Notes under the pieces: generated by a model
Told to the model about the DNA's origin: nothing
The model's database searches: none
The model's input: only the letters and a program-made list of their open reading frames with translations
Position numbers and translations under genes: made by a program
Source: Adineta ricciae
Taxonomy: Eukaryota > Rotifera > Eurotatoria > Adinetida > Adinetidae
Length of the DNA stretch: 64,000 bases
Reading direction: 5' to 3'
Assembly: GCA_905250025.1 (NCBI GenBank)
Contig: CAJNOJ010000138.1
Span: 208,817 to 272,816 of the forward strand
Part shown: piece by piece, positions 33,950-59,217 of the stretch
How positions within the stretch are numbered: the stretch's first letter is position 1
Layout of the letters: each line of letters starts with the position of its first letter

Positions 33950-34634
33950 ATGATGGCACCGACTATTTGGGTACAAATTGACAATTGTGACACGGAAAAG
34001 GTGCGGCTGGAATCGGAGATGGATATTGACGATCTTAAAAAGAAGTTACTAGGAAAGGATGCAAATAAATATCGAGCAATCTATCAGAATGTTAGGTTGA
34101 GGTCAGACACACTAATACCTGGTGACACGACATTTGAGCAACCCGTTTTGTTACAGTTACAAATAGCATCAGGTAGGACTGCTCTTCAACTTGTTTTTCT
34201 ACAAAATGATGAGATGATTTTTGAATCGCAGATTTGACATCGACTCAGTCGCAGCCGTTAATCACAAATGTAGACGGTACTTTTCAACCACACTTTGAAA
34301 ATCAAATGCTTGGACAGTCGACTCATGCGCACCAACGACGAGGTCAACCGCAGGCATACGATCCATATTATTCTTCGATAAATCAGGGCTTACTTAATAC
34401 TAGCTACCCACCAGTCCCGGATTATTCAACTGGTCGCACATCGATCCCTTTCAGTCTGTCATCGGGAACCTATTCTTCTGGGTTAAATTCGCATTATAAC
34501 TGTGATCAAACGTATCATTCATTTGCGGCACCCTCCAATTATGAAACATCATATTATTCACCAACAGGCATGAGCATGCCTACAATGGTAACTAACAACT
34601 GTTAATAGCGTGTGATTTTCGAGAGAAAAGAAGT
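33950..34634 (+). CDS. Ubiquitin-like header protein, 5' part (copy A)
   Basis: Exon 1 33950-34172, exon 2 34232-34587 (donor ATG|GTAACT), then intron to the join. Exon 1 encodes MMAPTIWVQIDNC and continues through MDIDDLKKKLL, KYRAIYQNVRL and a terminal PVLLQLQ: about 70 residues of beta-beta-alpha-beta type, as in ubiquitin-like headers of Crinkler (CRN/CR) proteins. The same module is in the giant GTPase gene (exon 48905-48630: KVWCQIDGY, ADIDDLKGQVL, YRAYYQNQLL). Exon 2 is a linker rich in Ser, Tyr, Pro and Thr. The rest of this copy is at 36053-36657 and is broken. Confidence 0.65.
34378..34634. repeat. Terminal overlap with 36053-36309 (257 nt)
   Basis: Same 257 nt by reading, sharing ACATCGATCCC where the copy-B piece at 34636 has ACATCAAACCC. 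The piece at 36053 therefore continues this one, skipping 34636-36051. Confidence 0.88.
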
Positions 34635-35343: not shown

Positions 35344-36051
35344 TCAATTTCGAGCGATTTCAGCATAGACACTGATGAGTTCTTCTAAAGTTTTTAATTC
35401 TTTGAATGTGCCACCCATTTTGTCATTAATTTTTTTCAAAAGATCCATTTGCGCAACACCGAATGCGACAGTCCAGAACTGATTAATTCTTGTTCTCAGA
35501 GTTAATAGTTTGTTGAGTTCGTTTTCGGGATAACTAGCTTGCCCATCGGTCATGAATATAATGATGAAAGATAAATTTTGAGCTGCATTAGCAGTGGAAG
35601 TTGGAAGTGGAACATTTTCTATCGTTTTAACTACTAAGTCGAATGCTTTGGTAAAATCTGTACCACCACTTGTAAATTGTATTTTGCCACTGTCAACTGC
35701 TTTTGATTCAACATTAAACATAGCGTAGTTTGCAGCACTAGCAAAAACGATAATCGTTATCCGATCTGCTGCACCACAGTCGATTCGAATTCTGATAAAT
35801 TCTTTCACAGCTTGCATCAAAGCATTCCAAGGATTTCCCGCCATTGATCCTGATGCATCAAGTAATAATATATAATGAAAAGCAGCTGGAGCGGCTTGAG
35901 GTGTGTTATTTGTAACAAATTTCATATCATATTGTTCACATAAACGTTTACCAATTTTACCCCAAACATGAAGAAACTTACTTCGTAATTTGTTCAAATC
36001 GTCGGGGTTAATCGCATTGCCGAAATACGACTGAGGGTGATCTTTCTTAAA
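35344..36051 (-). CDS. Giant SAM/Ubl/VLIG-type GTPase/vWA protein, C-terminal part (copy B)
   Basis: Last exon, cut at the N. It encodes the von Willebrand factor A domain with MIDAS motif DASGS, GGTDF and FMTDGQ, ending LEELISVYAEIARN and TGA. Alignable with 36769-37637 throughout. Metal-dependent ligand binding is the usual role of the fold; the partner is unknown. Confidence 0.8.
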   Translation of the reverse strand, partial: FKKDHPQSYFGNAINPDDLNKLRSKFLHVWGKIGKRLCEQYDMKFVTNNTPQAAPAAFHYILLLDASGSMAGNPWNALMQAVKEFIRIRIDCGAADRITIIVFASAANYAMFNVESKAVDSGKIQFTSGGTDFTKAFDLVVKTIENVPLPTSTANAAQNLSFIIIFMTDGQASYPENELNKLLTLRTRINQFWTVAFGVAQMDLLKKINDKMGGTFKELKTLEELISVYAEIARN

Positions 36052-36052
36052 N
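36052..36052. other. Assembly join (1 N), copy B to copy A
   Basis: Right side resumes the copy-A header gene in its linker exon. Confidence 0.9.
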
Positions 36053-36768: not shown

Positions 36769-39700
36769 TCAATTTCGAGCGATTTCAGCATAGACACTGA
36801 TGAGTTCTTCTAAAGTTTTTAATTCTTTGAATGTGCCACCCATTTTGTCATTTATTTTTTTCAAAAGATCCATTTGCGCATTACCGAATGTGACAGTCCA
36901 GAACTGATTAATTTTTGTTCTCATAGTTAATAGTTTGTTGAGCTCGTTTTCGGGATAATTAGCTTGCCCATCGGTCATGAATATAATGATGAAAGATAAA
37001 TTTTGAGTTGCATTAGCAGTAGAAGTTGGAAGTGGAATAGTTTCTATCGTTTTAACTACTAAGTCGAATGCTTTGGTAAAATCTGTACCACCACCTGTAA
37101 ATTGTATTTTGCCAATGTCAACTGCTTTTGATTCAACATTAAACATAGCGTACTTTGCAGCACTAGCAAAAACGATAATCGTTATCCGATCTGCTGCACC
37201 ACAGTCGATTCGAATTCTGATAAATTCTTTCACAGCTTGCATCAAAGCATTCCAAGGATCTCCAGCCATTGATCCTGATGCATCAAGTAATAATATATAA
37301 TGAAAAGCAGCTGGAGCGGCTTGAGGTGTGTTATTTGTGACAAATTTCATACCATATTGTTGACATAAACATTTACCAATTTTACCCCAAACATGAAGAA
37401 ACTTACTTCGTAATTTGTTCAAATCGTCGGGGTTAATCGCATTGCCGAAATCCCACTGAGGATGATCTTTTTTAAATTCTAACCAGGTTTTCTTCGTACC
37501 TCTCACAATAATGGGTTTGCCATCTTCCATTTGTTCACATTGAGATAATGACGCTTCGTTTGACACTTCAAATTTTGTACCTGCCATTGCTCGTAATTGA
37601 TGGCCAGTTTGACAAGCATGCCGATTATCTTCATCGCCTAAATTTACGATAACAATGTATACAAAAAAGTAAAATGATAGCCACCAGATTTTCAAGACAA
37701 GTGCAAACGCCATTATGAACATTATAAAAGCTCTCCCTACAGAAAGATCTAGATAAAAATATGGTAGCAATAGTCTACCGGGGAGAGTTTTTTCGCTGCT
37801 ACGAACGTACAAAAGAGTAAATTTTGATCACATACCTGGATTAGACTTGATTAAGCTATGATCAACGTCACATGGTCGATCACAGCATGGGCATTTTGAG
37901 GTACAGCCACGTGCTTTGTCTAACAATTTGTTATATATTTGATCTTTATCGAATACAGCGAACGTGGCGAAAATTCCGTCATAATCATCTTCGAGTGTTT
38001 TTCGCGCGCCAACTATAGTTTCGAGAAACTTGTGTAGATTTTTTATGGAAGCAATGATCATAGTTGAACCATCTTCACCTTTCATTGATTTGATAACATC
38101 GGCCAATTTTGGACTTGGCGATGGCAGTTTCTCAAATAACTTCGATCCTTTTGTTTTCAAAGTATACTTATTTCGACGAACTATATAAGCCATATCGGCT
38201 TGAACTGTTCCGCCTGAAAGATACGTGTATAATAATAAACCCATGCACTGACCTTTGTTGATCAAATTATCAGAAGCCGTTCCACCAGATGCTTCGAATA
38301 TATCGTCAATATATTGTACGGATGAACCTTCATTGGCCAACGAAGAAAGTAGAAACTCGATTCGATTGAAAAATTCAACTAAAGTCTGTCGCCATTGTTT
38401 CTTTTCTTTTTCTAATTGTTGATCAATTCCCTGTTGGATTCCATTCCATAAATTTTGAAATTCTTCAACGATTATATCTGTAGGTGCTTGGATATACTGG
38501 AGTAACCAATCGTTCGTAATCGAAGGCATTAGAAGTTTGCCATCACAAATTGTTTGAATCCGTTTTCGACTGAGATCGCTTTGATTATTTTGGACTTCGG
38601 TGGCGATGATTTTTTGTCCATTGCGCATTAAAATAGTTTGAATGGTGTTTTTCACTTGAGTAGCGAATAGTTTCGCACCTTCCTGGTCACACTGCGCATC
38701 AGGTACAACCATACTGATGAAATAGTTTAACAGTGACGATTTCTGAGCCTCTAATGTTTCAAGTTGTTGAGTGAAATGTTTCTTCTGTTCATTGTAATAA
38801 AAAATTGTTAATACAATTAGGACGCATAGATGAATATTCGATTTCGTTTGTTTTGACAATAACAAACGAAACACAAGCAATTCCAGATCCATTTCATTGA
38901 AGTACGTATTGATCAAGCCGACGATCTTCTGCACAATATCGATTTCGATAGGTCGAGGAACGGCATCATTTCCATTAACGATAATCATGACATCGTGTAG
39001 GATTCTGTCGAAAAACTTTGGAATGTTGCATATGTTTGAGTTTGCGTTTGATTTCTCATCGAATTCATTTAGAATCATTTCATGCGTTGCTTTCATGAAA
39101 TCAAAAGGTAATGGCGTTGGAATGGCGGGTGCAGAAGGTATATTCGACGCTGCTTGCGGTGATCCAAAACCCATAACATTTCCAGCGAATTTCATACCTC
39201 TTTGCAACAACGTTCTTTTTTCTTTTTTCCGTTCTACATGTTCCACGTTCTCCTCTGGTGAGACGTTGAAGGCTTCAAAAGTGTTTGCTTGCACAGAACC
39301 CGCCTTATTGAAATCTGTCAGTATATCCTTGTTCAAATGTTTAAAATTGTGCAGAGTAGCTAAGGTATATCCAACACTAGCGTCTGATTGTTTATGACAA
39401 ACTTCCAGCGCATGACTTTGAAGGTCAGTAGTTAATTTATTGAAATTTTTCTTCAATATATTTACGACGTTTCTCATATCATTGATTTCAATGAGTTTTT
39501 GAATTAATTGGAGGTGCTGGAGGACCAAATCATGCGTCGGTAAAGATTGTTTTTCGAAAATATTATAATTTGCATATACAAATTTGATGGCTTGTTTTAA
39601 TCGTTCCTCTGGATTGAAATTCTGTTTGATCGACTCGATCTTCTTCAGCCACATGAGTTCGAACTCTTTTGTTGCTTCTTCTTTGTCCATTGTGTCTCCA

Positions 39701-42342
39701 CGTTTTATGATATCATCAATGAACTTGCGCAAATCAGCAGAACCATCTTTAACGAGTCTTTCCATTTGTTTCTGATCATGTGCCTGAATAGCTGCTGTAC
39801 ACCACGCATTACTTATCTCCGTCACTTGCCGTTTGAGAAATTGTCGCGATCGATCTCGAATACGATCGGAGGCGTTAGTAATTTTGAAAATATTCTCTAA
39901 TTGTATATCAAAATTCTCTTGATGCACTTGAAACTCTTTCTGGAAATGATTGCGAATGTCATACTCCATGAATTCACATGTATCCTGGATCATTTTTTCT
40001 CGATATGTTGCCGATAATGTTGCGGATATGAGATCACTGATTTCCTTGCGTATTTGATCATCTTGTCGGCGCTCGTTGATATCCTTGAAATAAGTTAAAT
40101 CTGGAAATTTCTGCAATGTATCAAATATGTTCACAGCTGTTTTTAGCCATTGCTCGGGATCGGAAAACATCTCACTGCATCGTTCATAAGCTGACTTAGC
40201 GGATTCGATGACTTTCTGGCATAATTCTTGTGTGCGTTCAATAAAATCAGGCTCTGTTCGAAGAAAACATGCACTTGAAGTGTCATTCGATACGCGTTCT
40301 TTCTTAAAAGCCGATGGCAATGAATGAAATGTTTTGAAATTAATGTCAATAGTCTCTGCTAATTCTTTTTCTTTGAGATCGTCAATAATTTTGTAAATTG
40401 CGTCGTTATGATTTTTCAAATTTGGATCAGCTTTTTGATTTAAAACGAAATGCACAATTGGTTGATTGACCGTGTTGACACCAATTTGTTTCAACGAATC
40501 AGCGCACAATGTTAACATATCTTTTAACGTTTCATTGACATCTCCCAACATATTGACAATGACCAAATGTGATACAGCCAAGCAGAATAAAACTAAACGT
40601 CTGTCGTATTCTTTATCTCCTTTCTCGATCGATAGAAGACCTTCTGTGTCGATTAACATCATATAATCAATGTTTTGTATGTTGATATTGAGGACGTTTT
40701 CCAACTGTCCCCGACGTGCTCGATCTAGTTTAGGTAGTTTAACCAATGAACCATATATACCTCGCGTACATCGTCCGTCTCTCACATCAAATAATGTACC
40801 GAACATATAGTTTAAAAGTGTACTTTTACCACTATTTTGTGGACCTATAATACTTATCACTAATATCCGTTTCGAAGCAAACCGGTGTAGAATTTTCGAT
40901 AAAAACTGATGTTGAAAATAGAAATTATCTCCATCGATAATTTCAAACGGAAAGCCAGCTGCAATGAATTCGTAATAACAATCTTGTATTAACTTTTGCG
41001 TCGCCACTGATGCATAATCATGACAAATAATTGAATTTCGCCAAAGAACTTCCAATGATAAAAATGCATGTTCAGTGTTGAGATTTCCAGCTATTTTATC
41101 CGCACCTAAACCTCGCAATGCAGATTTTAATTCAGTTGCTAACAAATCTAAACTCATTAACATGTTGTCTGACTTTAAGATATCGACGTATGATTGAAAA
41201 ATATCCCCGGATGAAATTGGTGAGGAGTGTTTGCTGCGTGGGTCTAATTCGTTTTCCAATTTGAACAACTTTTCATTGATTTCAAACATATTTTCACTTT
41301 CGGAACCGTAGAAATCAAGTCGTTTGAGTTTTTGTCGTAATTTGCACAATTCTTGAAATTTCAAGTACAATGGAAAATTCTGATCATTTCGGCGTTGATT
41401 TTTGTCTAATAGTCGTCTTGTCAATGGTTGAATAATACCATCCATCTCTTTCAAGTATTGAACGTAATCTGGCTGCATTAGTTTGTGTAAATTCGACAAA
41501 ATTTCAGCTCTGCTATTGATTGTGTTGATGTCTTTTGTGACTTTTTTCTGAATATCTTCTCGTAAAGACTGAATAGCGAAACCCGTATCTCGATCATTTG
41601 CATTTGAAGCATTTATTAATGGATACACATACACATTTTTTGACAATCGTGAATCTGATTGCTTCAACAATGCTTGAGCCTTTGAGAAATAATCTTGTCG
41701 ATTATTGATGGGTACATCGCGGATGATCATGAGTTGAAACTTATCACGCGATAGGATCTCGAGATATTCAAGTACGGCAGACGCATTCTTATCGAAAGAA
41801 GTTTTGTCGATATGGATTAGAAATCCATCAAATAACGATTGAATTTTCTGCAAAAGCTGTTTGTCAAGTGTCCCATGTGCATCAGCAATGTTTAGTAGAC
41901 GTTCGGGAACGAAACAGTAGCCGAAATCAAGGTCGATTGTTCCTTGGAAGTAAACACTATCGATTCGTTGTTCGAATGTCGATTTAAATAGTTGATTCAG
42001 TAAAGAGGATTTGCCCTGACAAGAGCCGACACCAAAAGACAAAATTGTTGGTCTTGTGTGGTCCCAAACATGGATAATTGCCGGTATAAATTCATGTTGC
42101 TGGTTCGCATCGCGGTTTAGAATAGCAGGCGAAACAAATGGCACCGGATTTCTCTTACTTGCCAATGACATGATGATACGACGTAAGAATATATCCGAGC
42201 TCATCAGTAGAACGTGTAATACCATTCGTAAACTGAGATTTGTATCGTCGCTTGGTGGATTTGTCATGTTGTATTTTTCTGTTTGATATTTGAATGTTAA
42301 TGCATTCATAAAATCATCTAAATTTTGCAAGCGTTTCAAAAA
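36769..42342 (-). CDS. Giant SAM/Ubl/VLIG-type GTPase/vWA protein, middle and C-terminal part (copy A)
   Basis: Exons 42342-37836 (continues beyond the gap) and 37637-36769, intron 198 nt. Two GTP-binding domains. The first has the loop GSCQGKSS at 42004-42027; the second has GPQNSGKST at 40822-40845 followed by LLNYMFGTLFDVRDGRCTRG (G2 region), and DTEGL (G3) near 40636-40650. This layout and the long helical region after it match the VLIG/GVIN/URGCP group of very large interferon-inducible GTPases in vertebrates. A Cys/His cluster (CPCCDRPCDVDH, then HACQTGH) follows, also as in that group. The last exon adds a vWA domain with MIDAS DASGS at 37270-37284. The 5' half of this copy is at 47423-50592. 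The nearly intronless 5.7-kb exon is also typical of the family. Confidence 0.85.
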
Positions 42343-42435
42343 NNNNNNNNNNNNNNNNNNNNNNNNNNNNNNNNNNNNNNNNNNNNNNNNNNNNNNNNNN
42401 NNNNNNNNNNNNNNNNNNNNNNNNNNNNNNNNNNN
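42343..42435. other. Assembly gap (93 N)
   Basis: Left is copy A, right is copy B of the same gene at a different position. The 93 Ns therefore do not measure a real distance. Comparison with 45834-46031 suggests that about 200 nt are missing between 42342 and the copy-A continuation at 47423. Confidence 0.9.
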
Positions 42436-45400
42436 TCATCCGTTTCAATAGGTCGAGGAACGGCATCATTTCCATTAACGATAGTCATGACATCGTGTAG
42501 GATTCTGTCGAAAAACTTTGGAATGTTGCAAATGTTTGAAATAGCGTTTGATTTCTTGTCCAATTCATTTAGAATCATTTCATGCGTTGCTTTCATGAAA
42601 TCAAAAGGTAATGGCGTTGGAATGGCGGGTGCAGAAGGTATATTCGACGCTGCTTGCGGTGATCCAAAACCTATAACATTTCCAGCGAAGTTCATACCTC
42701 TTTGCAACAATTTTCTTTTTTCCGTTCTACCTGTTCCACGTTCTCCTCTGGTGACACGTTGAAGGTTTCAGAAGTGTTTGCTTGCACAGAACCCGCCTTA
42801 TTGAAATCTGTCAATATATCCTTGTTCAAATGTTTAAAATTGTGCAGAGTAGCCAAGGTATATCCAACACTAGCGTCTGATTGTTTATGACAAACTTCCA
42901 GCGCATGACTTTGAAGGTCAGTAGTTAATTTATTGAAATTTTTCTTCAATGTATCTACGACGTTTCTCATATCATTGATTTCAATGAGTTTTTGAATTAA
43001 TTGGAGGTTCTGGAGGACACAATCATGAGTTGGTAGAGATTGTTTTTCGAAAATATTATAATTTGCATATACAAAATTTATGGCTTGTTTTAATCGTTCC
43101 ACTGGATTGAAATTCTGTTTGATCGACTTGATCTTCCTTAGCCACATGAGTTCGAACTCTTTTGTTGCTTCTTCTTTGTTCTTTGTGTCTCCACGTTTAA
43201 TGATATCATCAATGAATTTGCGCAGATCAGCAAAACCATCTTTGACGAGTTTTTCCATTTGTTTTTTGTCACGTGCTTGAATAGCTGCTGTACACCAAGC
43301 ATTACGTATTTCTGTCACTTGTCGTTGAAGAAATTGTTGCGATCGATCTCGAATACGATCGGAGGCGTTAGTAATTTTGAAAATGTTCTCTAATTGTATA
43401 TCAAAATTCTCTTGATGCACTTGAAACTCTTTCTGAAAATGATTGCGAATGTCATACTCCGTGAATTCGCATGTACCCTGGATCATTTTTTCTCGATATG
43501 TTGCCGATAATGTTGCGGATATGAGATCACTGATTTTCTTGCGTATTTCATCATCTTGTCGGCGCTCGTTGATGTCCTTGAAATAAGTTAAATCTGGAAA
43601 TTTCTGCAATGTATCAAATATGTTCACAGCTGTTTTTAGCCATTGCTCGGGATTGGAAAACATCTCACTGCATCGTTCATAAGCTGACTTAGCGGATTCG
43701 ATGACTTTCTTGCATAATTCTTGAGTACGTTCAATAAAATCAGGTTCTGTTCGGAGAAAACACGCACTTGAAGTGTCATTCGATACGCGTTCTTTCTTAA
43801 ACGCCGATGGCAGTGAATGAAATGTTTTGACATTAATGTCAATAGTCTCAGCTAATTCTTTTTCTTTGAGATCGTCAATAATTTTGCCAATTGCGTCTAT
43901 ATGATTTTTCAAATTTGGATCAGCTTTTTGATTTAAAACGAAATGCACGATTGGTTGATTGACCGTGTTGACACCAATTTGTTTCAACGAATCAGCACAC
44001 AACGTTAACATATCTTTTAACGCTTCATTGACATCTCCCAACATATTGACAATGACCAAATGTGATACAGCCAAGCAGAATAAAACTAAACGTCTGTCGT
44101 ATTCTTTATCTCCTTTCTCGATCGATAGAAGACCTTCTGTGTCAATTAACATCATATAATCAATATTTTGTATGCTAGTATTAAGGATGATTTCCAACTG
44201 TCCGCAGCGTGCTTGATCAAGTTTCGGCAGTTTAACTAATGAACCATAAATGCCTCGCGTACATCGCCCATCTCTCACATCAAATAATGTACCGAACATA
44301 TAGTTTAAAAGTGTACTTTTGCCACTGTTTTGTGGACCTATGATACTTATAACTAGTATTCGTTTCGAGGCGAATCGATGTAGAATTTTTGATAAAAACT
44401 GATGTTGAAAATAGAAGTTATCTCCATCGATAATTTCAAACGGAAAGCCAGCTGCAACGAATTCATAATAACAATCTTGAATTAGCTTTTGTGTCTCTGG
44501 TGATGAATGATCATGACAAATAATTGAGTTTCGCCAAAGAACTTCCAATGATAAAAATGCATGTTCAGTGTTGAGATTTCCAGCTATTTTATCCGCACCT
44601 AAACCTCGCAATGCAGATTTTAATTCAGTTGCTAATAAATCTAAACTCATTAACATGTTGTCTGACTTTAAGATATCGACATATGATTGGAAAATATTCC
44701 CGGATGAAATTGGCGAGGAGTGTTTGCTGCATGGATCTAATTCGTTTTCCAATCTGAATAACTTATCATTGATTCCAAACATATTTTCACTTTCGGAACC
44801 GTAGAAATCAAGTCGTTTGAGTCTTTGTCGTAATTTGCACAATTCTTGAAATTTCAAGTACAATGGAAAATTCTGATCATTTCGGCGTTGATTTTTGTCT
44901 AATAGTCGTTTCGTCAATGGTTGAATAATACCATCCATCTTTTTCAAGTATTGAACGTAATCTGGCTGCATTAGTCTGTGTAAATTAGACAAAATTTCAG
45001 CCCTGCTATTGATTGTGTTGATGTCTTTTGTGACTTTTTTCTGAATATCTTCTCGTAAAGACTGAATAGCGAAACTCGTATCTCGATCATTTGCATTTGA
45101 AGCATTTATTAATGGATACACATACACATTCTTTGACAATCGTGAATCTGATTGCTTCAACAATGCTTGAGCCTTTGAGAAATAATCTTGTCGATTATTG
45201 ATGGGTAAATCGCGGATGATCATGAATTGAAATTTATCACGCGATAGGATCTCGAGATATTCAAGTACGCCAGACGCATTCTTATCGAAAGAAGTTTTGT
45301 CGATATGGATTAGAAATCCATCGAATAACGATTGAATTTTCTGCAAAAGCTGTTTGTCAAGTGTCCCATGTGCATCAGCAATGTTTAATAGACGTTCGGG

Positions 45401-47421
45401 AACGAAACAGTAACCGAAATCAAGGTCGATTGTTCCTTGGAAGTAAACGCTATCGATTCGTTGTTCGAATGTCGATTTAAATAGTTGATTCAGTAAAGAG
45501 GATTTACCCTGACAAGAACCGACACCAAAAGACAAAATTGTTGGTCTTGTGTGATCCCAAACATGGATAATTGCCGGTATAAATTCATGTTGCTGGTTCG
45601 CATCGCGGTTTAGAATAGCAGGTGAAACAAATGGCACCGGATTTCTCTTACTTGCCAATGACATGATAATACGACGTAAGAATATATCCGAGCTCATCAG
45701 TAGAACATGTAATACCATTCGTAAACTGAGATTTGTATCGTCGCTTGGTGGATTTGTCATGTTGTATTTTTCTGTTTGATATTTGAATGTTAATGCATTC
45801 ATAAAATCATCTAAATTTTGCAAGCGTTTCAAAAAATACATAATTGGTGTCAGACAATCTTGAATGAATTCAAGAAAACTACAACGGTTGCGAATGTAAT
45901 TTTCAACTAATTCGTCAGAAATGACTTTCAAGGTTTGATTGATATATTGCAATTCGCCAGCTTGTACAAGATCTTGCAATTGAAAAGGATTGCGTGACCT
46001 CATATGTATACAATTTGAAATGACACTCAACTCGTGCTTGTTATCGGGAACACTGATTGTAGTAATAGAGTGCGTCTCGTGGAATACTTTGCTTCGAATT
46101 TCTGGGTCTTGATAGAGATCTGATTTGATTTTGTTGAATATTTCACCGGTACATTTGCTTTCGATCAGTTTCATGCCGGTTTGGCAATCGAAATATAGCT
46201 CTGATATAAGCTTGTAGAGTTCGTCAATATTACTAACAACCAACACACCTAATATGCGTTTGATATTACCGAAAATTAACATATTTGCTGGCCATATTGC
46301 TGTGAGTTTTTCGTTCGATTGAAGTTTTATAAGAAATAGTTTGATTTTTCTCGGAATGAGCAAATCCTTGAAAAAATCCGCAATGTTTCCATCCTCAGCT
46401 TTATAAAGTTTTTGTAGTAGTTCATCAAGAATAGGTGGATCCAATTGAATGTTTTCCGATTGAAATATTTTCATTATTTCGGTTTTAAATTCCATCATAT
46501 TACCATCAGTACTGCTGGATGACGACAATGTTTTGCTTTGCCAGACTTTCTTAAACAATTCATTGGCATTCAGTTCATCTGTAAAATTTTTGAATTGTTT
46601 GGGTATAAGATGTTCTCTAATTTCTTCAAGAACACTCATATCTCCGTCAAATAGTCGTTGTGATACACGATTGAAATCGAGCTCAGCGTCGACATTATAC
46701 TTTTCCCATAAGAGCTTCAGTTCGTCTTGAAATTTCTTGAAAATATCACCTTCTGCTTGGATTTTTCTACTTCTCCATATTTCGTTGATCCGAGGATGTT
46801 CGAGGAACTTTTTTGAAAACTCTTTGAAAGCATTTTCGAGTAGTAGTTCCTTTATCTGTGCTAATGCTTCGTTGTGTTGATCGTAAAGGAGACGGACAAC
46901 TTCATCAAAATGTAACTCTTTCATTGGAACACGATATTCTTGTAACAGGCCTCGAAGTATACTTTGAAATTCTGAGAATAAATCTGCATCTTCGTTCGCC
47001 ACTGAAACAAAACATACACGCTTCATAGTTAGAGAATTTAATTACGTCCGTTCTTTTGTTCTTATTTTTGTAGAAATATGACAACTGTCTGTTTGATCGG
47101 TGATTTTCCGACTTACTGCATCATTTTATTTTTACCTGGTAGTTTTGAATGATGTGCTTCTGTGTGAGTCACGCTTGGTTTTGTATCTAACAAAATCAAC
47201 AATAAAGCCGTACAGTGTAACAGCGAATTATATATTTACCATTAGTTACTGTCGATTTCGATGCATCAATTTTCTTAAGAATTACTGGTCGATCAACTGT
47301 CGTATCGAATGGAATACGCGTGTTAGCATTGAGTAATTGATTTTGGTAATAAGCGCGGTATGAGCGTTTAGTACTTTGTTCACTAAGTACTTGTCCTTTC
47401 AAATCATCAATATCAGCAGAT
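42436..47421 (-). pseudogene. Giant SAM/Ubl/VLIG-type GTPase protein, N-terminal and middle part, frameshifted (copy B)
   Basis: Exon 47001-42436 plus part of the ubiquitin-like exon (47421-47240). It includes the helical region before the GTPases and both G domains (GSCQGKSS, GPQNSGKST, DTEGL), so it fills the stretch missing from copy A. Near 42710 the sequence has 7 nt fewer than copy A (39210-39227) in a run of T, which shifts the frame and ends the protein at CCKEV. The downstream frame (MNFAGNVIGFGSPQA) is conserved. The lesion falls in a homopolymer region, so raw reads are needed before calling the allele dead. Confidence 0.7.
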
Positions 47422-47422
47422 N
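47422..47422. other. Assembly join (1 N), copy B to copy A
   Basis: Right side restarts inside the 5.7-kb exon; the ubiquitin-like exon then appears a second time upstream. Confidence 0.9.
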
Positions 47423-50400
47423 CGTGTTTGTTATCGGGAACACTGACTGTAGTAATAGAACCCGTCTCGTGGAACACTTTGCTTCGAATTTCTGGGTCTT
47501 GATAGAGATCTGATTTGATTTTGTTGAATATTTCACCGGTACATTTGCTTTCGATCAGTTTCATGCCGGTTTGGCAATCGAAATATAGCTCTGATATAAG
47601 CCTGTAGAGTTCGTCGATATTACTAACAACCAACACACCTAATATACGTTTGATATTACCGAAAATTACCATATTAGCTGGCCATATTGCTGTGAGTTTT
47701 TCGTTCGATTGGAGTTTTATAAGAAATAGTTTGATTTTTTTCGGAATGAGCAAATCCTTGAAAAAATCCGCAATGTTTTCATCCTCAGCTTTATGAAGTT
47801 TTTGTAGTAGTTCCTCAAGAATAGGTGGATCCAATTGAATGTTTTCCGATTGAAATACTTTCATTATTTCGGTTTTAAATTCCATCATATTACCATCAGT
47901 ACTGCTGGATGATGACAATGTTTTGCTTTGCCAGACTTTCTTAAACAATTCATTGGCATTCAGTTCATCTGTAAAATTTTTGAATTGTCTGGGTATAAGA
48001 TGTTCTTTAATTTCTTCAAGAACACTCATATCTTCGTCAAATAGTCGTTGTGATACACGATTGAAATCGAGCTCAGCATCGACATTATACTTTTCCCATA
48101 AGACCTTCAGTTCGTCTTGAAATTTCTTGAAAATGCCACCTTCTGCTTGCATTTTTCTACTTCTCCATATTTCGTTGATCCGGGGATGTTCAAGGAACTT
48201 TTTTGAAAACTCTTTGAAAGCATTTTCGAGCAGTAGTTCCTTTATCTGTGCTAATGCTTCGTTGTGTTGGTCGTAAAGGAGACGGGCAACTTCATCAAAA
48301 TTTAACTCTTCTATTGGAACACGATATTCTTGTAACAGGCCTCGAAGTATACTTTGAAATTCTGAGAATAAATCCGCGCCTTCGTTCGCCACTGAAACAA
48401 AACATACACGCTTTATAGTTAGAGAATTTAATTACGTCCGTTCGTTTGATCTAATTTTTGTACACATATGACAACTGTCTGTTTGATCGGTGATTTTCCG
48501 ACTTACTGCGTCATTTTATTTTTACCTGGTAGTTTTGAATGATGTGCTTCTGTGTGAGTCACGCTTGGTTTTGTATCTAACAAAATCAACAGTAAAGCCG
48601 TACAGTGTAACAGCGAATTATATATTTACCATTAGTTCCTGTCGATTGCGATGGATCAATTTTCTTAAGAATTACTGGTCGATCAACTGTCGTATCGAAT
48701 GGAATACGCGTGTTAGCATTGAGTAATTGATTTTGGTAATAAGCGCGGTATGAGCGTTTAGTACTTTGTTCACTAAGTACTTGTCCTTTCAAATCATCAA
48801 TATCAGCAGATCTATCGAGTAGAATTCCTTCCGGTTCATATCCGTCAATTTGACACCAAACTTTGATTTTAGTGGTCGTCTCGGAGTTTTCACGTGATGC
48901 TCTGCCTAAGAATCAGACAGACTAATGATTAGTTTTGCAAGACAAAGGTGAAATGTAATTACGAAATAAATCGTTCAACATCTGCTACTCTGTACACCCA
49001 ATAAACTCACCTGAAGTTTCTGACGTTAGAAGATTTGGTAGTTCTTTTGGTACGGTTGGTTCTTGGTTGTTTGTCGAGTTTGAAGGTGTTGATAACGTAT
49101 CCTTACTCTGGTCATCCATGATGGTCACACTGACGTCAGCGGTAGATATGGTGTCGTATTGATCGTCCTAATTAAGAACAAAGCATTTAAGGGGTATGGG
49201 TGTGGGTGAGTGGAAGCGTGTCAAGGAATTCTGGAACTGGTAGGAATTCAGTTCTAAGATATATGAAGGGGCGATCAGATGAAACGTCGGAATACAGTCA
49301 AGAACGTCTTTGCATAAATGTCCTCTTATCGAAAGAAAGTTTTACGACGATGATGCACCAAATTATGAATTAAAACTATGGTTAAATCAAACATTCGAAT
49401 GTGCCATGTATGTAGAAAAAGAAATCTGATGTCCAAACTATTGATACGAGGCAAAGTTGCTAAATCTTAACCTGTCAATAGTGCTTGTCATATTTCTTAT
49501 TCAGCGATTATCTGTAATGATGTCGTTTTATATTCCGCCCCCTTCTGCATAGCTTCTCGCAATTTCCATACTACAATCGCAGTTGGATTTGGCAAATGAG
49601 AATAGTACAACTGCAGTTTAATCATACCATCACCCACCTTCACCCACACCCTCACCCTCACCTGTACGCATATCCGTAATTACCTGTGATGGTTTTTTAC
49701 ACGTTGTAGATGACATTCCAGCATAGGATTTGTCCAAAGCTAAGGTAACATCAGCTGAATCCGCAGTTTCGTTCCAAGCTTGTGCTTGAGATCCAGGCTT
49801 GGTACTTTTTTCTTGATGTTCTAGCCCTTAAAGATATTCAAGAATAAAAGGATGAATGGCTATAGTTGTTTGAAAAAGGCGAGTTTGAGAGATTTTCAAC
49901 GAATGGTGAATCCGCTGCATATGGTCCATTACAATATTATCATGTATCATTAAGTGACAGAGAGAACACTTCAGAAAATACTTATCCAGTGGCGTCGTAC
50001 CTGATGTGTTCATTGTGCTGTCTGCATAGGACTACAACTAGAGATCATGAGCTATCTTTTCATATGTTAAAACTTACCGGAGGCTCGTCTGTTGAGGATA
50101 ACACCGCGGTCTGATCAGATGCCAACGAATTCCTACAGCAGACCATTTTACAAAAGCATCAAAATTTATTATGTGCGCTTACTTGAGTTTCTGCAAAGCT
50201 TCTTTGAAAGTAATACGACCCTTCATGACTGGTATAAGTTCCTTCTGCTCGGCTTCTCCAAGACCTTCGCTCAGAAGTGTTTTCCCGTCAATTCCATTCT
50301 CTACAACATTATGCGTTTTATGACAATCTTCATCATTTCGAAAAAAAAAGAAATCCATTCATGAGTCCGTATCAATGAAATAATTCTCAAAATTGACTAT

Positions 50401-50592
50401 TTTTCCTGCCTTTCGGTGATTTTCAATGAAAACCAATGAGTTAGGCGCAATACGATGAGCCGTTATACTTTGTTCTACAGCTGTAAGCTTTGATTTCATT
50501 ACCATACCTTTGAAATTCTTGACGTAGTCATGCAGTCCTTTGTCATTCAACCAATCTGCTACTTGATCAATAGTCCATTTTGTAGGATCCAT
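47423..50592 (-). CDS. Giant SAM/Ubl/VLIG-type GTPase/vWA protein, N-terminal part (copy A)
   Basis: Eight exons with agreeing phases: 50592-50508, 50300-50183, 50132-50078, 50031-50001 (31 nt), 49826-49684, 49167-49011, 48905-48630 and 48391 onward. Exons 1-2 encode a SAM domain (MDPTKWTIDQVADWLNDKG at the start; IDGKTLLSEGLG and LQKLK at the end). Exons 3-6 are a Ser/Thr-rich linker with DEPPSYADS. Exon 7 is the ubiquitin-like module (KVWCQIDGYEPEG, ADIDDLKGQV, YRAYYQNQLL, RPVILKKID). Exon 8 begins the helical region ahead of the GTPases. SAM domains mediate oligomerisation, so the protein could assemble into polymers. Total size of the joined protein is about 2,470 aa. The single ATG at 50592 fits the start of a SAM domain. 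Confidence 0.78.
49629..49662. repeat. C-rich CACCCT/CCCACA low-complexity run
   Basis: Imperfect run of CACCC units within the 516-nt intron 5 of the giant gene. A G-rich run (GGGTGTGGGTGAG) lies about 430 nt away near 49199, so the two could pair. Only one or two units equal the bdelloid telomere unit TGTGGG. Confidence 0.5.
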
Positions 50593-52542: not shown

Positions 52543-55089
52543 ATGGCAGAAGCAACGAACATACGTTTCATTGATGAATATATTCTATCCTCACTAAATC
52601 TTCAAACACTTGATAACTTTGATGACTATCTCGTTGCCATCGTGGGTGTCGACGATGAGCCACACTTTCATAAGCAACTTCTAATGATAATTGACGGCAA
52701 TTGTTTCCAATCATTCGATGACATTCAACAGATTCCTGTGTTTAATGAATTTCAATCAAAACTAGATGTTTTCTTAATCATTTCTGGTACACTGGGAAAA
52801 CAATATCGTGATCATCTCATACAGAAAAGACAACTCAGATTCGTATACGTCTATTGTAGACATGAGAACCACCACATAGAGTGGACGAATGGAGTCGAGA
52901 AAGTCAGATGTGTAACATCTGATCCAACAACACTAATCGAAAAGCTTCACAAAGATGTCAGAACATTCAGCAACCGATGGCCATTCGAACAAAGATCATT
53001 TATCAAATCGTCAATACCCACTTCTCAATGGTTTCATTTATTTCTTACGATGATTTGTCACACACCTGACACCATAACATTACCGTACGATGATATGTTC
53101 AACGAATGCCGTTCATACTATAAGAATAATCAAGCAAAGCTTCATGAGATAAATCTGTTGTCGCAACAATATCGACCGAACAATGTTATCAGAGAATACA
53201 CGCGCGATGGTTTTGTTTATTGTGTTCTCAATCATGCTTTACGTACACGAAACATGCGACTTATCAGGATATTCAGCCCGTTTATTCGTGACTTACATAG
53301 TCAATTGTCTGACTGCCGATCGAAGTATCTTCGCAATTTGGACAAAGAACAGTTGATTCGGAGTGTTTACCGAGGACAACAACTAACTGAAGAACAAGTG
53401 GATCATCTTTATTCAGTCTGGAACTCCAATCATCCTGTTATCACTTTGACCACATTTGGTTCGACATCAAGGGATCCGAATGTTGCGTTGGACTTTATAC
53501 CATTTGCAGATGGTGTCGTTTCTTGTTTGTTTGAAATCATCATCACTGACGATCACTATGCCTCGGCAGAAAACTTCTTCTATGAAGCACCAGTGTTTGC
53601 AGATATTTCTTCAATGTCTACTATGCCCGACGAAAAAGAAGTATTATTTTCTCTTGGTACACGTTTTCGTCTAATTCGAATCGAACAACAACGAACGGAA
53701 AAGAATGGCTCCTGTCTTTTAATTACATTGAAACCAGCGGAGCCGGAAGATATGCAGAATAAATTTTCTGCTTCCAGTATTATCGAAGAATTTGAGAAGT
53801 TAGAAGATGGACAAGTCTATATGGATATTCTAGACATGTTACAAGAAACTGCGGACGACGAGACAAAATTCAACAGTACAAACTGGACAGTCTGGTGGAA
53901 TAATCTGAAGAATCAATGGCACCAAGGTCTCAGGGATAAATCGCCACTCAATCTCATATTCTATGGGTGTTTTACCAATAGTCCAAAGTGGTCCAGAAAA
54001 GCAATCGAAATGCATAAAGATAGTCTACGTGCCGTTCCAAGTATTGAATCAAATCGATCTTGTTTTAGAAAACTATACGAATGGTCTAATGCACTGACGA
54101 CTGTAGTACCAACAAGATGGCTAGCTTTGTACGAAGTATATCTGGAAACGTTATGTACAACAAACACGAACGAAGTTATAAATACAGTGAAAACTGCTGT
54201 AGAAACGTATGAAAAGATCGACGACAAGGCACATGCAGAGAGCTGTTATGAAAAATTGTTGGCACTAATAGGTGATACTAATACAAAGATGAAGAAAGAA
54301 ATAGAAAAGAAAGTGAAACGCTTAGAAAATCCTTCTGCACCAACAGAGAAAAAAGGTTCCAGACCTGAACCGATCGTTCCGCACAGAGAACCGTCCAAGG
54401 TGTATAAAGTGCAAGAACAACTGTGGATGATATACGAATCGCTGAAAGAGTGTGCTGATGAGTCGAAGTCAATCAGACCCCGTTCCACTAAGGTGGATGG
54501 ATTACTTCGACTGGCTGCTGATTCGTACGATGCAGGTGACTCGCGAATTATTCTCCGAATACCATTCATCGAAAATGCGAGACTGTCTGTGAACGACTAT
54601 CGCTTCTATTGCCTTTTATCTACTGGAAGACATACGGAAAAACTAGATAACGTGATCAAAGACGGAAGTAATAATCGTGAGCTGACATTATGGCGCTATG
54701 AGAAATATATGTATGGATGGATATTTCTCGGACAACTGAAGCATTGCTTACTTTTGTCGAAAGGATCCCAAAGTCGTATTGCTTTAATTGATCGACTGAT
54801 GAAGAAACTGAATGTTCTTCTGACAATGTGCACGATTTATTTATGCGTTAAACCGCGCAGCAAGAAAGTAAACGTGGACGGGATGAAGTTCGTGAATGTG
54901 ATCGACGAGGGAACAAAGCAACATATTTTCGGTGATGTTTTTAATGACAACCTGTTGGTTAAGCTAGAAGCACTGGAACGAGAAACTGTTACCGTCAGTG
55001 AAACTTGTAAACCGATACCTGATAGTTATAGAGAATCGAGATTAGATCTGACTACGATGGAAAGAGAAGACGTTTTCTCTGATCCATGA
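52543..55089 (+). CDS. Arginine-type ADP-ribosyltransferase with helical C-terminal region
   Basis: Single exon, 848 aa. The catalytic R-S-E signature is visible: SVYRGQQL (Arg277), GSTSRDP (Ser307-Thr308-Ser309) and DEKEVLFS with Glu364/Glu366 (ExE, the arginine-specific form). The N-terminal 130 residues (FDDYLVAIVGVDD, VFLIISGTLGKQYRD, LRFVYVYCRHE) look like an alpha/beta receiver-like module common in bdelloid and protist ADP-ribosyltransferases; its function is not established. Residues 410-600 are helical and TPR-like (EKIDDKAHAESCYEKLLAL), followed by a conserved C-terminal region ending EREDVFSDP. The enzyme would transfer ADP-ribose from NAD to arginine of a protein. No signal peptide is seen, so it is probably intracellular. 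A paralogue is at 57730-59217. Confidence 0.8.
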   Translation: MAEATNIRFIDEYILSSLNLQTLDNFDDYLVAIVGVDDEPHFHKQLLMIIDGNCFQSFDDIQQIPVFNEFQSKLDVFLIISGTLGKQYRDHLIQKRQLRFVYVYCRHENHHIEWTNGVEKVRCVTSDPTTLIEKLHKDVRTFSNRWPFEQRSFIKSSIPTSQWFHLFLTMICHTPDTITLPYDDMFNECRSYYKNNQAKLHEINLLSQQYRPNNVIREYTRDGFVYCVLNHALRTRNMRLIRIFSPFIRDLHSQLSDCRSKYLRNLDKEQLIRSVYRGQQLTEEQVDHLYSVWNSNHPVITLTTFGSTSRDPNVALDFIPFADGVVSCLFEIIITDDHYASAENFFYEAPVFADISSMSTMPDEKEVLFSLGTRFRLIRIEQQRTEKNGSCLLITLKPAEPEDMQNKFSASSIIEEFEKLEDGQVYMDILDMLQETADDETKFNSTNWTVWWNNLKNQWHQGLRDKSPLNLIFYGCFTNSPKWSRKAIEMHKDSLRAVPSIESNRSCFRKLYEWSNALTTVVPTRWLALYEVYLETLCTTNTNEVINTVKTAVETYEKIDDKAHAESCYEKLLALIGDTNTKMKKEIEKKVKRLENPSAPTEKKGSRPEPIVPHREPSKVYKVQEQLWMIYESLKECADESKSIRPRSTKVDGLLRLAADSYDAGDSRIILRIPFIENARLSVNDYRFYCLLSTGRHTEKLDNVIKDGSNNRELTLWRYEKYMYGWIFLGQLKHCLLLSKGSQSRIALIDRLMKKLNVLLTMCTIYLCVKPRSKKVNVDGMKFVNVIDEGTKQHIFGDVFNDNLLVKLEALERETVTVSETCKPIPDSYRESRLDLTTMEREDVFSDP

Positions 55090-56248: not shown

Positions 56249-56249
56249 N
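56249..56249. other. Assembly join (1 N) inside the globin-like gene
   Basis: The piece 56250-59217 has no continuity with either side; both halves of the globin-like gene flank it. Confidence 0.8.
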
Positions 56250-57729
56250 CACGAGACATAGGCAGATTAGGCTTACAAGCAACGATGTGATTCTCTTTAT
56301 GCTTCTGAGGATCTTTGTTATGGAACTATCGGCTGCAATCAGTTATTTTACACAGTATCCCATTTTATCATGTACAAAGTAATCAAATTTCTTGATAAGA
56401 TTGATCCAGTGCTCCAAAAGCTAGCGAGAATGATATGAGATTCGAGTTCGAATTAGTTCAAGTCTAATTGTACAGTAAGTTACGAAAAACAATGAATATT
56501 CGTAATTAGCAATCTTTCTCTGCTCTTGAAAGTCTAACGGAAATGTTGAAAACTATTGGAAAGTCGAAAATTATTATTATATTCTTTAAAATCCCAAAAG
56601 AAACTGTTACAGAATGGTTGAATTATCTGGTATTCACAGAATTGCTGTCATATTGTTACAGTTATTCAAAGTATTGCAAGCAAACAAACAAATACACAAA
56701 TTTTTTTCAAAAAAAGTGACTCCAAATCTGAAATGAACGAGAAACTAGGACGTAGAGCTGCACAGTGTCTCAGCTATCATTAAGCAGCATTTTTCATAAT
56801 TGTGCTGTTAATTTAGGCTCATCGCTGGTAGAATCCTATTGACCCCACTGCTACTGCAATAAAGGAACTGAAAGAAATATTTAATGCAGTTTTTCAATTT
56901 GTCTGACGAATACAATGTTTAAACAAAAATTGAATAACAAATACACGAGATGAAGTCAAACAATATCGTGCTTCTTGGACTTCCATTGCATTTTAAATGC
57001 GGGAAAATGGACTGATTTCAATGAGTGCGGTGCGGGCTATCATCCTGCGAGTATCTGTCCGACGAACAAGCCGCCGTAAATAGATTTCAATATTGTAGTA
57101 AAGGTAATTTAAAAACATCTGCCACAATTGATTTAATCTGTTTTTTTTTATGAAGTTCAGTTGACGATATCGTTCGCAATAACTTCAGTACGCTATGTAA
57201 ACTCTCTATCAAAGGTCAAACAAGAAAAGCTTTAACGATCTACCCTGGTAAACATTGTCTCTCCTGATACTAAGTATATATTTCTCCTTCTTTATATAAG
57301 CCATCGCATCCACATCTGTTTCGTTCTCTTTCAGTATTCATAGACATTTCACAGAATATAATAGCGAAGGAATAAGATAGAAGAGATAGAGCACGAGACA
57401 TATAACATACTTTCTTTTCTTATCTTCGTCTTTTTCTCGTTCCTTCGGGTCGATCGTTTCTTCGCTCTTCTTCTTTTCGCAATCCGACAAAAAGAGCTTA
57501 CCTTATGAATGTTTTTCGAACACTTACAATTACGACATACTTCTTATCTTCGACGTGCTCGCCTACGAAAAATATAAACTACATCGACACGCACATTTAC
57601 TGTAGAAACATATCGTTACGAGCGATAACTATTTTTCCACAGTTCTTTCTCTTCCGCGCACGTGTTGTACACAAGTCGTATATAGTTTGGTACGTCAGAC
57701 AAAACGATTAGTTTTGCTTATCGTCGCCA
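56250..57729. other. Non-coding stretch upstream of the ADP-ribosyltransferase paralogue
   Basis: About 1.5 kb with no gene recognised. It does not resemble the 5' flank of the first gene (50593-52542), which indicates a paralogous rather than allelic locus. A TTTATATAAG at 57290-57299 could be a TATA element if the 5' UTR is long. Confidence 0.4.
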
Positions 57730-59217
57730 ATGGCAGAAGCTACGACTCAACGTCCTATTGACGGAAATACATTGCAGTCATCAAATCTCAAATTACTTAA
57801 CAACTTCGACGACTACTTGGTAGCTATTGTGGGCATCGAAGATAAACAACACTTTCTTCAGGAACTTCCGACGATGCTTAACAACGATCGTTTCCAATCG
57901 TTTGATGATATCAAAAACAGTCCTGTTTTCGTTCATTCTGAATTAGAGACTGATGTTTTCTTAATCATTTCTGGTACACTGGGAAAGCAATATCGTGATC
58001 AACTCATACAGAAAAGACAACTCAGATTCGTATACGTCTATTGTAGACATGAGAGCCACCACACAGAGTGGACGAATGGAGTCGAGAAAGTCAGATCTGT
58101 AACATCTGATCCAACAACACTAATCGAAAAGCTTCACAAAGATGTGAGAACATTCAGCAACCGATGGCCATTCGAACAAAGATCATTTATCAAATCGTCA
58201 GTACCCACTTCCCAATGGTTTCATTTATTTCTTACACTGATTTGTCACACACCTGACACTATAGCATTACCGTATGATGCTATGTTCAACGAATGTCGTT
58301 CATACTATAAGAATAATCAAGCAAAACTTCATGAGATAAATCTGTTGTCCCAACAATATCGACCGAATAATGTTATCAGAGAATACACGCGCGATAGTTT
58401 TGTTTATTGTGTTCTCAATCACGCATTGCGTACACGACGCATGCCACTTATCAGAATACTCAGCCTGTTTATTCGAGACTTACATGGTCAGTTGTGCAAG
58501 CGTCAGTCAGCCGATTATAAAAATTTGGACAAAGAACAATTGATTCGGAGTGTTTATCGAGGACAACATCTAACTGAAGAACAAGTGAATCATCTTTATT
58601 CAGTCTGGAACTCCAATCATCCTGTTATCACTTTGACCACATTTGGTTCGACATCAAGGGATCCGAATGTTGCATTTAGGTTTGCGCTGCCTGAAAATGC
58701 TGTCGTTTCTTGTTTGTTTGAAATCATCATCACTGACAATCGCTGTGACTCGACAGAAAGCCGCTTCTATGAAGCACCGGTGTTTGCAGATATTACTTCA
58801 ATCTCTGAAAAGAGGCATGAACGAGAAGTACTGTTTTCTCTTGTTACACGTTTTCGCATCATTCAAATCGAAAGGCAACAAATGGAAAACAATGACTCCT
58901 ATCTTTTAATTACATTGAAACCAGCGGAGCCGGAAGACATGCAGAATAAATTTTCTGCTTCCAGTATTATCGAAGAATTTAAGAAGTTAGAAGATGGACA
59001 AGTCTACATGGATATTCTAGACATGTTACAAGAAACTGCGGACGACGAGACAAAATTCAACAGTACAAACTGGACAGTCTGGTGGAATAATCTGAAGAAT
59101 CAATGGCACCAAGGTCTCAGGGATAAATCGCCACTCAATCTCATATTCTATGGGTGTTTTACCAATAGTCCAAAGTGGTCCAGAAAAGCAATCGAAATGC
59201 ATAAAGATAGTCTACGT
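57730..59217 (+). CDS. ADP-ribosyltransferase paralogue, 3' end missing
   Basis: Starts MAEATTQRPIDGN and runs 496 codons to the join. Arg (SVYRGQHL), Ser (GSTSRDP) and ExE (EREVLFS) residues are all present, so the catalytic core looks intact. Similarity to the gene at 52543 is uneven: the first 70 residues and the stretch around the ExE are clearly diverged. The parts from ISGTLGKQYRD to about codon 230 and from LKPAEPEDM to the end are almost identical in DNA. The piece stops at TAGTCTACGT, inside the near-identical part, typical of an assembly break at a repeat. Confidence 0.75.

Follow-up and report, generated by a model that had tools for sequence, protein, structure and literature searches.

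A predicted giant GTPase gene of the VLIG/GVIN/URGCP kind with SAM and ubiquitin-like headers and a vWA tail in the rotifer Adineta ricciae

To our knowledge, target choice by the vertebrate GVIN and VLIG GTPases is an open matter, and we know of no ligand-binding reader in these proteins. Human GVIN1 is reported to coat Burkholderia thailandensis and acts in defence; it is encoded by an uninterrupted 5,424-nt ORF, and its AlphaFold model has the order N-domain, LG, helical linker, LG and C-domain (PMC11974893). For bdelloid rotifers, the available part of an infection study mentions neither GTPases nor interferon, its authors not having closely explored metazoan genes (PMC11258130). Here, we describe a gene in a 64-kb stretch of Adineta ricciae DNA (the whole stretch that was analysed, hereafter the window) that, judged from its sequence, looks like a family variant of the VLIG/GVIN/URGCP GTPases with added headers and a vWA tail. 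The initial annotation had called this combination unfamiliar among VLIG/GVIN proteins, and we likewise found no description of the order SAM, Ubl, VLIG, vWA among the matches listed from open-licence PMC text.

The giant gene lies on the minus strand and consists of 10 predicted exons with GT-AG borders, which together read as a single open frame, 2,485 residues long, with its only stop at the end. The model is pieced together from three copies of parts of the locus: the nine-exon part is open from the SAM start to 47424 in the splice-border model, and 2,485 residues are reached after adding 46032-45836, copy C and the last exon. Exon 9, the giant exon, extends from 48391 to 37836 and measures 5,673 nt by arithmetic from the coordinates once the copies are removed. 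The single open frame proposed in the initial annotation thus stands, while its join of 47423 to 42342, giving about 2,470 residues, does not, since it omits the 197 bp of 46032-45836, a length that is not a multiple of 3. The features, all on the minus strand, are as follows.

50592-50508 and 50300-50183 (within 50183..50592), minus strand: exons 1 and 2, SAM domain (SAM_2 match), split by a predicted phase-1 intron
50132-50078, 50031-50001, 49826-49684 and 49167-49011 (within 49011..50132), minus strand: linker, exons 3-6, placed by GT-AG splice borders alone
48630..48905, minus strand: exon 7, Ubl domain, from fold model and Foldseek
48576-48526 and 48391-47423, minus strand: short exon 8 and start of the giant exon (copy A), with three helical repeats
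42436..47421, minus strand: copy B of the locus, which begins inside the Ubl exon and spans both G domains; the sole copy with 46032-45836
44929..45916, minus strand: G domain 1 (copy B), with GVGSCQGKSS, DAHG and IIRD; weak profile matches
43916-44590, minus strand: G domain 2 of copy B, PF25683
37836..42342, minus strand: copy C, with the remaining giant exon, the G domains, the helical stalk and the first zinc-cluster half
40405..41082, minus strand: G domain 2 (copy C), URGCP/VLIG type, with GPQNSGKST, DTEG and VLNQKAD
36769..37637, minus strand: last exon, with the second zinc-cluster half and the vWA domain (36799-37296) with its metal-site motif; stop at 36769
35344..36051, minus strand: copy D, a further vWA end, cut by the N at 36052

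Along the protein, the order is SAM, Ubl, three helical repeats, G1 (weakly detected), G2, a helical stalk, the zinc cluster and vWA, so that the succession of SAM, Ubl, GTPase, zinc cluster and vWA given by the initial annotation is borne out within one frame. Exon-skipping variants of the linker, without exons 4 and 5 or without exons 5 and 6, are open as well. Between exons 5 and 6, the intron stretch 49603-49341 (minus strand) is 74% identical to part of contig C188 and is perhaps a dispersed repeat.

The SAM domain becomes visible when exons 1 and 2 are joined, with a Pfam match to SAM_2 (E 5.9e-8, 33.2 bits versus a cut-off of 20.5) that confirms the assignment made earlier; SAM_1 is above its cut-off too (30.9 bits versus 23). 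A genome-wide SAM_1 search lists 38 matches from which the giant-gene SAM is absent, its exons being short singly. Among solved chains, liprin-beta-1 gives the best whole-chain E value (3.6e-13), with no single stretch passing 0.001.

For the Ubl exon, a fold model built from a three-row alignment has ubiquitin topology with a pLDDT of 80.7, and Foldseek matches it to Ubl and ubiquitin chains at a probability of 1.00 (best E 4.4e-4; 11 of 1,746 matches at E<=0.001), with TM-scores of 0.5-0.7 and identities of 8-17% in the first 30 rows. This confirms the ubiquitin-like module predicted for 48905-48630. The exon has no Pfam match at E<=1, and by sequence profile only, its similarity to solved chains is not significant (polyubiquitin, E 0.87). 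The Crinkler-like label attached to the module earlier is not supported by sequence, given the lack of a Pfam match for the exon and of PF20147 in the genome. A search of the genome for this Ubl at E<=1 returned 9 matches, comprising 2 giant-gene copies, 1 weak match (E 0.285) and 6 others, the latter at 33950 in the window, at C828, at 13.9 kb of C121, twice at C305 and once at C403. Both C305 matches carry stops inside the matched stretch, and the C403 Ubl sits 1.9 kb upstream of the GVIN exon of that locus, with no clear exons between. At C828 and C121:13.9 kb (L041 and L043), the Ubl header is followed by frames that we named by eye as MORN-like and F-box-like. The second Ubl header of the window (33950-34192, plus strand) is 45% identical to the giant-gene Ubl over 66 residues, and the gene that carries it appears to be convergent with the giant gene. 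A Crinkler header was considered and rejected, PF20147 having zero matches in the genome; no control genome gave a match either, which makes this weak evidence.

Each of the three helical repeats, which precede G1, is about 75 residues long; their borders were set by eye before alignment. G2 is a URGCP_GTPase (PF25683) with E values of 4.1e-28 and 2.3e-28 in two copies (98.7 and 99.5 bits versus a cut-off of 55); it is above cut-off for the RHD3, GBP and MMR_HSR1 Pfam models as well, and the nearest solved chains by sequence are SEY1 (the best) and GBP1/GBP2. G1 is recognised at the level of motifs, with a P-loop (GVGSCQGKSS), a D-x-H-G element (DAHG) and an RD element (IIRD), all of which are retained in the paralogue C48 and visible by eye in the frame of C272. 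Its match to MMR_HSR1 (E 0.008, 16.7 bits) is below the cut-off of 21.9, hhalign gives it a probability of 55% with G2 rows and of 5% with rows of the GVIN type, the match to G1 of the GVIN-type paralogues being colinear and weak, and its fold model has a pLDDT of 40. Of the two VLIG-type G domains claimed earlier, G2 is therefore secure, with PF25683 far above cut-off, while G1 stays at motif level with below-cut-off matches and a failed fold model. The predicted zinc cluster, CPCC...C.DH...H.C..GH, was found at about 37.9 and 37.6 kb, split over two exons, and the closing vWA domain is a PF00092 match (E 2e-8, 35.1 bits versus a cut-off of 23.8) with its metal-site residues in place; both features had been correctly called in the initial annotation.

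PF25683 has at least 9 matches in the genome, 8 of them above cut-off, corresponding to at least 8 loci when the window gene is counted once; the C272 match is just below cut-off (54 versus 55 bits). Within the stretches examined, three of eight URGCP-type loci (the window gene, C48 and C272) carry the zinc cluster and vWA end; the sequence after C403 is full of long N runs, and this locus is not judgeable for vWA. The zinc cluster is common to these three and has a weaker match in C552 (E 1.8e-4), and the vWA metal-site residues (DxSGS, T and D in the window gene) are seen by eye in all three. The vWA-type trio groups together in a tree of 8 rows (support 96/99) in which two long branches, one of them C272, were flagged; the vWA frame of C272 holds an N accompanied by a repeated segment. 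Ahead of the vWA-VLIG core of C272 lies an exon that resembles the N-terminal part of a window gene at 57724-59214 on the plus strand (24.8% identity over 101 residues, E 5e-5). That gene is related to another at 52543-55086 (plus strand), with 78% identity over the first 200 residues, and Pfam searches of three neighbouring frames, these two included, gave at best sub-threshold ADP-ribosyltransferase matches. The G2 P-loop reads GPQNSGKST in the window gene and C48, versus GEQSSAKSS in C317, C121, C299 and C403.

Two loci have a further neighbour in common: related AAA+ ATPase frames lie beside the GTPase loci at C48:32564-36416 and C403:28174-31948 (49% identity over 152 residues), with no match to this frame at E<=1e-3 in the window or in the examined stretches of C272, C317, C121, C299 and C552. 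A 23-mer of the bdelloid spliced leader has 0 matches in the genome. A four-unit run of the TGTGGG telomere repeat (PMC7943196) has 38, versus 44 for its reversed control, which is itself this repeat in a shifted register, so that the comparison carries no weight. Beyond the genome, scans with two short peptide patterns each gave 75 and 39 matches in viral contigs and 18 and 9 in prokaryote genomes, none of which was confirmed by tblastn; weakly, these searches disfavour a prokaryotic or viral source of the giant gene.

Because of the homology to GVIN1, our leading proposal, which we hold at slightly less than even confidence, is that the giant protein is a GTP-driven, self-assembling GVIN-type scaffold with docking headers and a ligand-binding tail. 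It would belong to the giant GTPases of the VLIG/GVIN/URGCP kind and reside in the cytosol, where its G domains would dimerise and power GTP-dependent assembly, as modelled for GVIN1; that such assembly is the working principle of the protein is, by the same analogy, about evenly balanced with a small tilt towards doubt. SAM would cross-link protomers or recruit a SAM partner. The Ubl domain, being embedded in the giant protein without a terminal Gly-Gly, would serve as a surface for docking, as in TBK1, and not act as a modifier. The vWA metal site would bind a ligand peptide and thereby select the target or client; in work on bacterial conflict systems, this site is said to bind extended peptides (PMC7159879). 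The most likely job of such a protein would be that of a coat or scaffold on foreign or damaged material inside the cell. An immune job is tentative, with doubt outweighing confidence, and an invertebrate immunity complex would be plausible by analogy.

Somewhat unlikely, and the best of the alternatives, is a housekeeping role, with the GTPase as a scaffold of membranes or cytoskeleton and vWA as a chaperone-like client binder, an RHD3/SEY1-like membrane fusion being one form of it. Here the RHD3_GTPase model is of interest, the cut-off of which G2 passes in both copies (46.3 and 50.9 bits versus 42.4), and SEY1 is the best solved relative; however, the URGCP_GTPase score is about twice as high, and GVIN1 itself is described as working in defence (PMC11974893). 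A housekeeping role would also suit the small size of the family and the constraint on its sequence. Between copies A and B, dN/dS is 0.31 (16 synonymous and 21 nonsynonymous differences), and between B and C it is 0.16 (88 and 58), and judged from these ratios, the copies of the giant gene are evidently under purifying selection.

The scaffold proposal presupposes that headers and GTPase core are parts of one protein. A quite improbable alternative is that the SAM and/or Ubl exons form a separate upstream gene and that the GTPase-vWA gene begins further along, an in-frame ATG at about 49119 in exon 6 being one candidate start. Elsewhere, at five loci, the Ubl is immediately preceded by an in-frame Met that resembles a gene start (the starts being assumed). 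At C48, the closest paralogue, the examined stretch has a GTPase-zinc-vWA core and matches neither SAM nor Ubl, and SAM and Ubl matches are likewise lacking in the stretch examined for C272. Both points would suit two genes, and C48 suggests that the core can do without the headers. Yet SAM exon 2 closes at an in-frame splice donor and not at a stop, the chosen borders hold one frame throughout, and the Ubl and giant exons are adjacent in both copies A and B. In addition, SAM is located upstream of the core at three of eight URGCP-type loci (the window gene, C121 and C299, with C317 reaching the contig end and not judgeable), and at C121 and C299 it is interrupted at the same place as in the giant gene by a GT/AG-bordered stretch. 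This recurrence ahead of two other GVIN-type cores argues against separate SAM/Ubl and GTPase genes, and the whole SAM-Ubl-GTPase-zinc-vWA architecture very probably belongs to a single gene.

The copies from which the model is assembled are bounded by gaps. The window contains 12 N runs, and in a self-match test with 6 kb per side, near copies touch both sides of 9 of these; a tenth (7711) has a near copy in the whole-window self-comparison, beyond the 6-kb limit, and the runs at 56249 and 59218 have no both-sided near copy within 6 kb per side, with an 88% repeat ending at 59217. The copies of the giant gene meet the N runs at 47422, 42343-42435 and 36052 within 8 bp. Their overlaps are 96.5% identical for A/B (48811-47423 versus 47421-46033), 95.2% for B/C (45835-42443 versus 42342-38943) and 94.4% for C/D (37476-36089 versus 36051-34636), and near 42.7 kb copy B goes out of frame with copy C. 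Since these near-identical overlapping copies abut Ns, we read them as one locus in unmerged overlapping pieces, which perhaps represent two haplotypes. A genuine tandem arrangement, with two or three giant genes, would suit the divergence of the copies (3.5-5.6%, with dS of 0.09 and 0.15) and is highly improbable, given that the copies end within 8 bp of N runs, that the pattern is repeated at other N runs, and that there is no second complete giant gene within the window. Positions 1-36 kb hold more near-copy blocks flanking single Ns, and we suggest that unmerged overlaps recur along this part of the window, where they would mimic tandem duplicates.

Taken as one gene, the predicted giant protein would offer SAM, Ubl and a metal-site vWA as separable parts for recruitment and target choice, and it would show the giant GTPases of this lineage to swap N-terminal headers with other proteins. 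A bolder and rather unlikely extension is a modular grammar of intracellular defence, in which interchangeable headers (SAM, the recurrent Ubl and a third shared with ADP-ribosyltransferase-like proteins) would stand before giant GTPases, one group having added vWA after the zinc cluster. If this were true, the choice of header would decide which pathway is recruited by the coat.

Compared with described systems, the gene has several partial counterparts. It shares a predicted ubiquitin-like fold with the Crinkler (CRN) domains, which are used as N-terminal headers (PMC5289972), whereas the giant-gene Ubl is internal, lacks PF20147 and is accompanied by no CR effector domain among the Pfam matches of the gene. 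With the bacterial vWA-MoxR ternary and GTPase-centric conflict systems, described as NTPases coupled to defence (PMC7159879), it has the vWA domain in common; it differs in its class of GTPase, in having introns and in having no MoxR ATPase among its Pfam matches. Within the genome, the SAM-headed GVIN-type genes at C121 and C299 likewise have an interrupted SAM followed by a GVIN-type core, but they have the other G2 P-loop and, within the stretches examined, match neither Ubl nor vWA. The vWA-VLIG paralogues C48 and C272 share the G domains, zinc cluster, vWA and tree group, although C272 has another exon upstream, which resembles a portion of the window gene at 57724-59214. Most of the core lies in one giant exon with a URGCP-type GTPase, as in VLIG/GVIN genes such as human GVIN1 (5,673 nt versus the 5,424-nt ORF; PMC11974893), and the weakly detected G1 of the giant protein would be parted from G2 by a helical linker, as the two LG domains are in the GVIN1 model. 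Unlike the VLIG/GVIN proteins, the giant protein adds SAM and Ubl headers, helical repeats and a C-terminal vWA domain.
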